DNA from: Anaeromyxobacter dehalogenans 2CP-C
Lineage (GTDB): Bacteria > Myxococcota > Myxococcia > Myxococcales > Anaeromyxobacteraceae
NCBI RefSeq assembly: GCF_000013385.1
Contig: NC_007760.1
Location: forward strand, 682,001-746,000
DNA length: 64,000 bases
Direction of reading: 5' to 3'
The position numbers and the translations under genes were made by a program. Shown piece by piece: positions 37,399 through 57,464 of this stretch (position 1 is its first letter; each line of letters begins with the position of its first letter). A model generated the notes under the pieces. It did no database searches, was not told the origin of the DNA, and saw only the letters and a program-made list of their open reading frames with translations.

Positions 37399-38979
37399 AT
37401 GAGCGGGTCCGGGGCAGAGCCGGGGCTTCATCGAAAGCTCGTCTGGCTCACCTTCTTCCGCCTGGTGACCGTCACCGTGCTGCTCGGCGGCACGGCGCTG
37501 GTCGGCTGGCAGGTCGGTGGTGAGGCGGGTGGCTACCTCGCGCCGCTCTACGGCGTGGTCGGCGCGACGTACGCGGGCTCGCTGGTCTTCGCCGTCGCCC
37601 TGCGCCGCAACACCGGCCTGGTCGCGGTCGCGTACGTGCAGATCGCGCTCGACGTCGCGATCGCGACGGCGGTGGGGGCGCTCACCGGCGGCGTCGAGAG
37701 CGTGTTCGTCTTCATGTTCTCGCTGGCGGTCGTGAACGGCGCGATCCTGCTCTACCGCCGCGGCGCGATGGCCGCGGCCGGGATGGCGCTGCTCGGCTAC
37801 CTGGTGATGCTCGCCGCCACCTGGCGGCCCGGGGCCGTGCCGGTCGTGACCGTTTTCGCGCACGGCACCGCGTTCCTGGTCACGGCTGCGCTGGCGTCGT
37901 ACCTCGCCGAGATGCTCCGCAGCGCGGGCGAGCGCCTGGCCGAGCGGGAGGGCGATCTCGAGGCCATCACCGCGCTGCACGAGTCCATCGTGCAGTCGCT
38001 GACCAGCGGGCTCGTGACGGTGGATCGGGCCGAGCGCGTGACCTTCCTCAACGCCGCGGCGGAGCAGGTGACCGGGATCCCCATGGAGCGGGCGCTCGGG
38101 CAGCCGGTCCGGGAGGTGCTGCCGTTCCAGGCCGGGACCGGGCGCGACGAGATCGAGTGGGTGAACGCGCGCGGGGAGCGGCTCACGCTCGGGTACACCA
38201 TGTTCCCGCTGGTGGGGCGCGGCGGCACCGGGATCGGGTCGGCCGCCATCTTCCAGGATCTCACGCGTCTCCGCACGATGGAGCAGGCCTTCCAGCGCAG
38301 CGAGCGGCTCGCGGACCTGGGCCGCGTGGCCGCGGGCCTGGCGCACGAGCTGCGCAACCCCCTGGCCTCCATGGCAGGCTCGGTGGAGCTGCTGCGCGCG
38401 CAGGCGGCGCCCGACGGAGACGAGCGGCGGCTCCTCGACATCGTGCTGCGCGAGGCGTCCCGGCTCGACGAGCTGGTGACGGAGTTCCTGCGCTTCGCGC
38501 GCCCGGCCCCGCTGCGACCGGGCTCCGTGGAGCTGTCCGGCCTCCTCGACGACGCGCTCCGGGTGTTCGCGCACGATCCCGCCGCCGTGGGGCTCCTCGT
38601 GGCGCGCTCGCTGGACCCGGCGCCGGCGGCCTGCGATCCCGATCAGATCCGCCAGGTGGTCTGGAACCTCCTGCGGAACGCCGCCCAGGCGCTGGGCGAC
38701 GGGCGAGGCGCGCGCATCGAGGTCTCCTGCGGCGTCGAGGACGGCGGCGCCTGGTTCGCCGTCGGGGACGACGGTCCCGGGATCCCGGCGGCGGAGCTGG
38801 AGCGCATCTTCCTCCCGTTCCACACCACCAAGGAGCGCGGCACGGGGCTCGGGCTCGCGGTCGTGCAGCGAATCGTGGACGCGCACGGCGGCCGCGTCGA
38901 GGTCCGCTCGACGCCGGGCGAGGGCGCCCGGTTCACCGTCCACCTGCCCGGCCCCGCGGGCGTCGCGCAGACGGGGTAG
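37399..38979 (+). CDS. pilS: Membrane sensor histidine kinase PilS
   Basis: Partner kinase of PilR. The 526 residues have about six N-terminal membrane helices (20-190), a PAS domain (205-310), the H-box with His316 (GLAHELRNPLASMAGSVELL), and an ATPase domain with DDGPGIPAAEL and GTGLGLAVVQRI. In Pseudomonas and Myxococcus PilS senses PilA in the membrane. GTCC-rich flanks; it starts 13 bases after pilC. Confidence 0.94.
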   Translation: MSGSGAEPGLHRKLVWLTFFRLVTVTVLLGGTALVGWQVGGEAGGYLAPLYGVVGATYAGSLVFAVALRRNTGLVAVAYVQIALDVAIATAVGALTGGVESVFVFMFSLAVVNGAILLYRRGAMAAAGMALLGYLVMLAATWRPGAVPVVTVFAHGTAFLVTAALASYLAEMLRSAGERLAEREGDLEAITALHESIVQSLTSGLVTVDRAERVTFLNAAAEQVTGIPMERALGQPVREVLPFQAGTGRDEIEWVNARGERLTLGYTMFPLVGRGGTGIGSAAIFQDLTRLRTMEQAFQRSERLADLGRVAAGLAHELRNPLASMAGSVELLRAQAAPDGDERRLLDIVLREASRLDELVTEFLRFARPAPLRPGSVELSGLLDDALRVFAHDPAAVGLLVARSLDPAPAACDPDQIRQVVWNLLRNAAQALGDGRGARIEVSCGVEDGGAWFAVGDDGPGIPAAELERIFLPFHTTKERGTGLGLAVVQRIVDAHGGRVEVRSTPGEGARFTVHLPGPAGVAQTG

Positions 38980-38991
38980 GATCCGGTCGCC

Positions 38992-40374
<1,383 letters not shown>

Positions 40375-52925: not shown

Positions 52926-52941
52926 AGCATCGAGGGTGCCA
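52926..52941 (-). promoter_or_regulatory. Sigma-54 promoter of pilA
   Basis: Minus strand TGGCACCCTCGATGCT: exact -24 element TGGCAC and -12 element ATGCT with the correct spacing. Transcription should begin near 52915, giving a leader of about 75 bases. PilR/PilS in the same locus are its likely regulators. Confidence 0.82.
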
Positions 52942-53023
52942 GCGGCCGGGCATCCGCAAGCACCCGATCCGACATGGATGGCGGAGACCCGCGGTGACGG
53001 AACGCGGCGCCCGCCCCGGGTCG

Positions 53024-53042
53024 GGTGACGTTTTTCGTCACC
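53024..53042. promoter_or_regulatory. Palindrome GGTGACG-N5-CGTCACC between pilA and pilH
   Basis: Perfect 7-bp arms around TTTTT. It lies about 110-125 bases upstream of the pilA start point, where an NtrC-type activator would bind. A third half-site GGTGACG is at 52993-52999. A PilR enhancer is the obvious guess; a repressor site for pilH is the alternative. Confidence 0.55.
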
Positions 53043-53060: not shown

Positions 53061-53089
53061 TTGACAGGGGCCAGGACCCCGCCGATCAT
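53061..53089 (+). promoter_or_regulatory. Promoter of pilH, leaderless geometry
   Basis: TTGACA (53061-53066), 17-base spacer, GATCAT (53084-53089), eight bases before the ATG at 53098. No ribosome binding site lies in between. Confidence 0.65.
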
Positions 53090-53097
53090 CCGCGGCG

Positions 53098-54054
53098 ATG
53101 ATCCTGAGGACGGAGAAGCTGACGAAGGTCTTCGAGGTGGGGCTGCTGGCACGCAAGGTCACCGCGGTGGACGCGCTCGACCTCGAGGTCGCCCCCGGGG
53201 AGATCTTCGGGTTCGTCGGCCCGAACGGCGCCGGCAAGACCACGACCATCAAGATGTTGATGGGGCTCATCTACCCGAGCAGCGGGCGGGCCTTCATCTT
53301 CGACGACCCCATCCCGAGCCGGCGCGCCAAGGCGCGCATCGGCTACCTGCCGGAGCACCCCGCGTACTACGAGTTCCTCACCGGCCGCGAGGCGCTGCGC
53401 TTCTTCGCGCGGCTCTCCGAGGTCCCGGGGGCGGCTCGCGACCGCCGCTGTGACGAGCTGCTCGAGCTGGTGGGCCTGACCGCGGCCGCGGATCGGCAGA
53501 TCCGGAAGTACTCGAAGGGCATGCAGCAGCGGCTCGGCATCGCGCAGGCGCTGGTGGGCGACCCGGCGCTGGTCGTGCTGGACGAGCCCATGAGCGGGCT
53601 CGACCCCGTCGGCCGCAAGGACGTGCGCGACCTCATCCTCGAGCTGAAGCGGCGCGGCAAGACCGTGTTCTTCTCCACGCACATCCTCCCGGACGTCGAG
53701 AGCCTGTGCGACCGCGTCGGCGTGATCCTGCGCGGCAAGCTGCGCGACGTCGGGCGCATCGACGAGCTGCTCTCCGGGAACGTGCGCGCGGTGGAGCTCA
53801 CCGCCACGGTGCCCGGCCCGGCGCGCGAGGCGCTCTCGCGCGGGCGGCTCCTGCGCGCCGACGGCGACCGCCTCACGGTGGTGTTCGACGACGCGCCCGC
53901 GGCCGACGCCGCGGTCAGCGCCGTGGTGCGCGCCGGCGGCAGGGTGATCGCGCTGACACCGCACCGCGACACGCTCGAGGACTTCTTCGTGCGCCGCCTG
54001 GCCGAGGTGCACGGCGCCGAGCCGGAGCCGAGGGCCGCCGCCGGGGGTGCGTAG
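53098..54054 (+). CDS. pilH: ABC transporter ATP-binding protein, PilH-like
   Basis: The 318 residues contain Walker A (GPNGAGKTTTIKML near residue 42), the signature YSKGMQQRLGIAQAL, Walker B ALVVLDEPMSGLDP and the H-loop FFSTHILPD. An ABC-2 type ATPase with an accessory C-terminal domain. Likely partner is the PilI-like permease at 50511, although it lies on the opposite strand. In Myxococcus this ABC system is needed for pili. PilD starts two bases after its stop. Confidence 0.87.
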   Translation: MILRTEKLTKVFEVGLLARKVTAVDALDLEVAPGEIFGFVGPNGAGKTTTIKMLMGLIYPSSGRAFIFDDPIPSRRAKARIGYLPEHPAYYEFLTGREALRFFARLSEVPGAARDRRCDELLELVGLTAAADRQIRKYSKGMQQRLGIAQALVGDPALVVLDEPMSGLDPVGRKDVRDLILELKRRGKTVFFSTHILPDVESLCDRVGVILRGKLRDVGRIDELLSGNVRAVELTATVPGPAREALSRGRLLRADGDRLTVVFDDAPAADAAVSAVVRAGGRVIALTPHRDTLEDFFVRRLAEVHGAEPEPRAAAGGA

Positions 54055-56090: not shown

Positions 56091-57464
56091 GTGGGCATGC
56101 GCAACGTCCTCGTCGTGGACGACGAGGCTTCCATCCGGCACCTGCTCTCCGTGATCCTGGTGGACCACGGGTACGACCCGCGCGCGGTGGCCACCGGCGA
56201 GGAGGCGCTCAAGGAGCTGGCGGCCCGGGACTTCGACCTGGTGCTCACCGACGTGCGCATGCCCGGGATGGGCGGCCTGGGCCTGCTGCGCGAGATCCAG
56301 CGCACCGCGCCGGAGCTGATGGTCATCGTGATGAGCGCGTACGGCGCGCACGACGCGGCCATCGAGGCGATGAAGGCCGGCGCCTACGACTTCCTGTCGA
56401 AGCCGTTCAAGCCGGACGAGGTGGTGCTGGTGCTCCGCAAGGCGGAGGAGCGCGAGCGGCTGGCGCGCGAGAACCGCCGGCTGCGCACCGAGCTGTCGGC
56501 CGGGTACAGCCCGGAGCACATGGTCGGCACCTCCGAGCCGATGCGCGAGGTGTCCCGGCAGATCCGCAAGATCGCGCAGCAGAAGACCACCGTCCTGGTG
56601 CAGGGTGAGTCGGGCACCGGCAAGGAGCTGGTCGCGCGCGCGATCCACCAGCTCTCGCCGCGGGCCGCCCTCCCGTTCGTCGCGGTCAACTGCGGGGCCA
56701 TCCCCTCGGAGCTCATCGAGTCCGAGCTGTTCGGGCACGTGAAGGGCGCCTTCACCGACGCGGTGCGCGCGAAGAAGGGGCTCGCGGCGGAGGCGGACGG
56801 CGGGACGCTGTTCCTCGACGAGATCGGCGAGCTGCCCCTGGGCCTCCAGGTGAAGCTGTTGCGCTTCCTCCAGGAGGAGGAGGTGCGGCCCGTCGGCGAC
56901 ACCCGCAGCCGCCGGGTGGACGTTCGCGTCGTCGCCGCGACCGCGATCGACCTCCGCGCCGCCGTGGCGGCGGGCCGGTTCCGGGAGGATCTGTACTGGC
57001 GCCTCGACGTGGTGGGCGTGCGCCTCCCGCCGCTGCGAGAGCGGCGGGAGGACCTCCCCGCGCTGCTGGATCACTTCCTGGCCCGGTTCCGCCACCTCCG
57101 CCCCGAGCTGCCCGGGCTGGCGCTGTCGGACGAGGCCCGCGCGGCGCTGCTCGCCCATGGCTGGCCCGGAAACGTGCGCGAGCTGGAGCACGCGGTCGAG
57201 CGGGCCGTGGTGCTCGCCGACGGGCCGGTGCTGCGCGAGGAGGACCTGCCCGAGGGGATCCGCGCCCGCGCGCGCGCGGCCCCGGCACCTGCCGACGCCG
57301 GCGACGGCTCGCTGTCGGTGAAGCGCGCCACCCGCGCCCTGGAGGAGCGGCTCATCCGTGCGGCGCTGGAGCGGACCGCCGGGAACCGCACCCGCGCCGC
57401 AGAGCTGCTCGAGCTCTCGTACGGGGCGCTCCTGTACAAGATCAAGGAGTACGGCCTCGGATAG
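56091..57464 (+). CDS. pilR2: Second NtrC-family response regulator, PilR2-like
   Basis: The 457 residues have a receiver (Asp54 in VLTDVRMPGMGG), AAA+ domain (GESGTGKELVARA, GGTLFLDEIGEL, FREDLYWRL) and a C-terminal Fis-type helix-turn-helix (RTRAAELLELSYGALLYKIK). The sigma-54 contact loop is GAFTDA, not GAFTGA. That Gly-to-Asp change would be expected to weaken or alter sigma-54 activation. The start could be GTG 56091 or ATG 56097; both lack a ribosome binding site. Confidence 0.9.
   Translation: MGMRNVLVVDDEASIRHLLSVILVDHGYDPRAVATGEEALKELAARDFDLVLTDVRMPGMGGLGLLREIQRTAPELMVIVMSAYGAHDAAIEAMKAGAYDFLSKPFKPDEVVLVLRKAEERERLARENRRLRTELSAGYSPEHMVGTSEPMREVSRQIRKIAQQKTTVLVQGESGTGKELVARAIHQLSPRAALPFVAVNCGAIPSELIESELFGHVKGAFTDAVRAKKGLAAEADGGTLFLDEIGELPLGLQVKLLRFLQEEEVRPVGDTRSRRVDVRVVAATAIDLRAAVAAGRFREDLYWRLDVVGVRLPPLRERREDLPALLDHFLARFRHLRPELPGLALSDEARAALLAHGWPGNVRELEHAVERAVVLADGPVLREEDLPEGIRARARAAPAPADAGDGSLSVKRATRALEERLIRAALERTAGNRTRAAELLELSYGALLYKIKEYGLG

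Follow-up and report, generated by a model that had tools for sequence, protein, structure and literature searches.

The 257-bp region between pilA and pilH in Anaeromyxobacter dehalogenans 2CP-C very probably carries the upstream activating sequence of a sigma-54-dependent pilA promoter, consisting of paired predicted binding sites for dimers of the NtrC-like response regulator PilR. The region lies in a window of 64,000 nucleotides (positions 682001-746000 of the single contig of this genome), in which pilA runs leftwards from 52840 and pilH rightwards from 53098. The pair of dyads is a real, well-conserved element that keeps both its sequence and its helical position across the myxobacterial order, and its sites persist in genomes that have lost PilR2, a second NtrC-like regulator encoded nearby.

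The pilA promoter and its paired dyads

The product of pilA matches the NCBIfam models for the prepilin N-terminal domain and the PilA_Myxo N-terminal region, and at each of the 21 home-family pilG loci that were examined, a pilin gene adjoins pilG. The -24/-12 element that the first-pass annotation placed before pilA is real: TGGCACCCTCGATGCT shows GG-N10-GC spacing, and two of its positions differ from TGGCACR-N4-TTGCW. Such a GG-N10-GC element is found upstream of pilA in 20/20 family loci. Transcription of pilA would start at about 52916. Promoter positions throughout come from the best sequence match rather than from mapping of 5' ends, with the GG at -24 as the reference for dyad centres.

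Table 1. Coordinates of the pilA control region, neighbouring genes and candidate regulators in the window
Feature	Position	Strand	Basis
PilR (PilR1), NtrC-like response regulator, predicted ligand	38992..40374	+	conserved helix; orthologue adjacent to pilA in Myxococcus-like genomes
pilA, type IVa major prepilin, 191 aa	52265..52840	-	prepilin N-terminus; NCBIfam
Sigma-54 -24/-12 element of pilA, TGGCACCCTCGATGCT	52926..52941	-	sequence read directly
Tentative IHF-like block GATCGGGTGCTTG, centre ~-47	52957..52969	-	weak sequence match
Second, degenerate dyad of the predicted pilA enhancer, GGCGCCGCGTTCCGTCACC, centre ~-86	52993..53011	-	12/14 arm positions
Main predicted enhancer palindrome GGTGACGAAAAACGTCACC, centre ~-117, predicted PilR dimer site	53024..53042	-	sequence and conservation
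Sigma-70-like pilH promoter, TTGACA-N17-GATCAT	53061..53089	+	unique in window; absent from shuffled sequence
pilH, ABC transporter ATPase, divergent from pilA	53098..54054	+	ORF; NCBIfam ABC ATPase matches
PilR2, NtrC-like response regulator, disfavoured as ligand	56091..57464	+	NtrC-family match

Farther upstream, a direct reading of the sequence confirms the proposed 19-bp palindrome GGTGACG-N5-CGTCACC at 53024-53042. It is perfect, with a spacer of five T residues (GGTGACG-T5-CGTCACC; GGTGACGTTTTTCGTCACC), and is the only match without mismatches in the window. Loose matches to the palindrome mean little because the GC-rich window yields 43 of them when three mismatches are allowed, compared with 11 expected. 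Genome-wide, the exact palindrome occurs twice in 5,013,479 bp, and one copy is that upstream of pilA. The other sits within a long coding frame, and we rejected it as a regulatory site. The home genome was searched by pattern, and a combined search for TGAC-N7-GTCA followed 55-85 bp later by TGGC-N8-TGC gives one match in the 5,013,479 bp, at pilA. When the core is partly relaxed, with A or T at its centre and a sigma-54 element still present, pilA is again the sole match in the genome.

The palindrome had been described as accompanied by one further half-site. The GGTGACG in question is present at 52993, but it does not stand alone: it is the stronger arm of a further 19-bp dyad. The centres of the two dyads are 31 bp apart, at about -117 and -86 from the predicted start site.

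In a scan for IHF-like sequences (WTC-N6-TTR), most family members have their best match on the same strand and at -46 to -48, a positional concentration that is suggestive. The match itself is weak, with sequence scores barely above those of shuffles (6.2 versus 5.6), and we regard an IHF site near -47 of pilA as tentative.

Conservation and helical phasing

Within the family, we recovered 20 usable pilA upstream regions from six genera by using pilG as an anchor; the relatives include A. oryzae, A. terrae, A. oryzisoli, A. soli and strain PSR-1. One genome (G014) carries two pilA-pilG copies on separate contigs (L054, L068). The palindrome is found at -116 to -131 in all 20 regions, and all 14 arm positions are intact in 7 of them. 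Its distance to the promoter is restricted: the gap between the palindrome and the -24/-12 element is 81-86 bp in 17/20 family members and 93-96 bp in the other 3, which corresponds to a site-to-promoter distance of 92-97 bp in 17/20 and of 104-107 bp, about one turn more, in 3. The 5-bp spacer, which plays no part in scoring, is 91% A+T in the home family versus 27% in the flanks. A pattern that combines the palindrome with the sigma-54 element has about one match per family genome, located at pilA in 16/18, and the reversed control of this pattern has no match in family genomes.

For the order as a whole, pilG was found in 122/132 genomes, and 40 loci were fetched from eight further families. 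In five of the 40, the fetched stretch contains no pilin that could be recognised. Four genomes (G047, G073, G084 and G119) do not enter the statistics, since no credible sigma-54 element was obtained for them under the start-codon rule. Among the 31 upstream regions from other families, in which related genomes are not independent, 28 have a TGACR-N5-YGTCA dyad with at least 8/10 core matches between -145 and -80, versus 2.8 in dinucleotide shuffles; with at least 9/10 core matches the figures are 21 and 0.3. The R/Y degeneracy of this scoring core was picked after a first look at the upstream regions, and the order-level test is thus not fully blind. Control windows at -210 to -145, -80 to -15 and -20 to +45 are at background in the other families. 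In the home family the window from -210 to -145 is slightly raised (4 versus 0.9), and the pilH promoter sits there. The unscored 5-bp spacer is again rich in A+T in the other families (85%, versus 36% in flanks).

The second dyad is likewise more than a local feature. It lies 30-33 bp from the palindrome in 17/20 family members, and the best second dyad within 40 bp of the main dyad has a mean score of 7.74, versus 6.23 (sd 0.10) in shuffled flanks. Among second dyads scoring at least 7, 42 of 44 are located 20-22 or 30-33 bp from the main dyad. These spacings amount to two and three helical turns, respectively, as in the paired enhancers of NtrC-like activators. Home-family genomes as a rule have the wider spacing, which families f8 and f9 each show in a single genome; in the Myxococcus-like family and in others the narrower spacing predominates. 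A fitted helical period is 11.45 bp, which exceeds 10.5 bp, and the argument for phasing rests on the discrete spacings instead.

Candidate regulators and the divergent pilH promoter

A PilS-PilR pair is encoded in the pil cluster of the window (37399-38979 and 38992-40374). The first-pass annotation had considered the upstream sites to be at the right distance for PilR, and this proposal is strongly supported by their position, order-wide conservation, helical phasing and persistence without PilR2. Since the window encodes both PilR and PilR2, assignment to PilR rests on other species. Orthologues of PilR have the recognition helix [ST]FRS[LFI]RYR in 18/20 genomes, and in Myxococcus-like genomes the PilR orthologue adjoins pilA. 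Orthologues of PilR2 have a conserved helix of their own, resembling S[YH]RALLYK.

The dyads could instead be bound by PilR2, or by PilR and PilR2 jointly, so that pilA would integrate the signals of two sensor kinases. PilR2 is NtrC-like, is encoded 3 kb away and has its own conserved helix, and M. xanthus needs it for pilus-dependent motility (PMC6211767). We nonetheless consider its involvement improbable, and the informative contrast comes from three genomes of one genus (G067-G069) that have no PilR2 orthologue at a threshold that finds PilR2 in 114 other genomes. One of them, G069, is a complete genome on a single contig. Their fetched pil regions (L227, L229, L230) include PilS-PilR and lack PilS2-PilR2, whereas the sister genome G070 (L234) has both pairs; the same two dyads occur in all four, at -107/-108 and -128/-129. 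In G031, a metagenome-assembled genome from another family, PilR2 is likewise missing, whereas PilR and the dyad remain. The loss of PilS2-PilR2 in G067-G069 is in line with the reported absence of pilR2S2 from Cystobacter fuscus (PMC6060248), a report that itself speaks against PilR2 as the ligand. Because the sites and PilR persist where PilR2 has been lost, and because expression of pilA in M. xanthus requires PilR (PMC6211767), PilR, not PilR2, is likely the ligand of the pilA dyads.

Two genomes run counter to a strict association with PilR. The metagenome-assembled genome G131 (86% complete, 6% contaminated) has no clear PilR orthologue, yet it has a site with a perfect core, and G026 retains a 9/10 site although its PilR has a changed helix (TFRQFRHR). 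In the small genomes G118 (L233) and G119 (L231), of 2.3-2.7 Mb, neither PilR nor PilR2 was seen in the fetched pil neighbourhood, and the pilA upstream regions have no enhancer dyad (best score 7). Both genomes keep pilA and pilH, and control of pilA may have been rewired in them.

The palindrome had also been proposed to let one protein set transcription in both directions, as an operator shared by pilA and the divergent pilH. It does sit in the stretch that separates the two promoters, and in the window 28 bp lie between its centre and the pilH -35 element; a TTGACA-N17-GATCAT-type element is found in 10/20 family intergenic regions. In these 10 genomes, which have a recognisable pilH -35/-10, the distance from the dyad to the pilA -24 element is 93-96 bp (SD 1.0), whereas that to the pilH -35 element ranges from 19 to 66 bp (SD 11.9). 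The spacing to pilA is therefore fixed while that to pilH drifts, and the dyads are still there in Myxococcus-like genomes, where pilR rather than a divergent pilH is upstream of pilA. On this comparison of variances we reject a shared operator as the main role, and regard the explanation as quite improbable; the dyad element belongs to pilA. As to pilH itself, the GATCAT of its -10 element ends 8 bp ahead of the start codon, and this distance is 6-9 bp in most relatives with the element. Being so short and recurrent, it suggests that pilH mRNA is probably leaderless.

That another NtrC-like regulator, for example NmpR, or an unrelated factor occupies the palindrome is very improbable. NtrC-like activators are numerous, and the home genome has 14 strong PilR-like matches, but the sites are paired, phased and tied to pilA. 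For NmpR in particular, the described site is GCGCA-N5-TGCGC and in published EMSA the protein did not shift the pilA promoter of M. xanthus (PMC11841059, PMC6211767), whereas the conserved dyad reads TGACR-N5-YGTCA. Finally, loose palindrome matches are common in the window, but the idea that the dyad is a chance product of GC-rich DNA has a negligible probability and is refuted by order-wide conservation, the A+T-rich spacer and helical phasing.

Proposed mechanism and relation to known enhancers

In the mechanism that we favour, two PilR dimers would bind two dyads of 15-19 bp on the same face of the helix, namely the strong distal dyad TGACG-N5-CGTCA at -117 and the weak proximal dyad at -86. 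Phosphorylated PilR would assemble at these dyads into an ATPase ring, and the intervening DNA would bend, possibly with help from IHF near -47. PilR could then remodel the closed complex of RNA polymerase and sigma-54 at the -24/-12 element, allowing transcription of pilA to start.

NtrC enhancers consist of paired inverted-repeat dimer sites that lie on one face of the helix and act on a sigma-54 promoter. The pilA region shares this anatomy, with a variable stretch between the paired dyads and the -24/-12 promoter, and differs in half-site and regulator; it is clearly a switch of a kind that was known before. The PilR-dependent pilin promoters of P. aeruginosa and Geobacter sulfurreducens have the same -24/-12 pilin promoter activated by PilS-PilR. 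Activator sites in P. aeruginosa were reportedly placed roughly 80-120 bp upstream by Jin et al. in 1994, and the myxobacterial dyads are found about 80-130 bp upstream of pilA, as expected of PilR-type activator sites. The hallmark elements described for P. aeruginosa PilR are TGT-N11-AGA and GTCT (PMC6058289), and this description sets them apart from the TGACR-N5-YGTCA pair. NmpR enhancers of Myxococcus xanthus likewise have paired N5 dyads upstream of a sigma-54 element and are served by an NtrC-like regulator, although their half-site is different and NmpR does not bind the pilA promoter.

The literature that we searched, with most subscription papers outside it, contains no description of a PilR site at a myxobacterial pilA promoter. 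What is new is a defined enhancer code for myxobacterial pilA, together with its pairing and phasing and the evidence for PilR over PilR2. Tentatively, we suggest that PilR of Anaeromyxobacter could be a nearly single-target activator whose sites are one turn further apart (30-33 bp) than in the majority of the order's other families (20-22 bp), in which case this lineage might provide a natural test of how helix phase constrains enhancer architecture. The code STGACR-W5-YGTCAS, paired and phased, is a testable prediction of binding. The natural variants, with two versus three turns between sites and one-turn shifts relative to the promoter, can serve studies of how NtrC-like activators assemble, and the proposed enhancer would explain how pilA is switched on.
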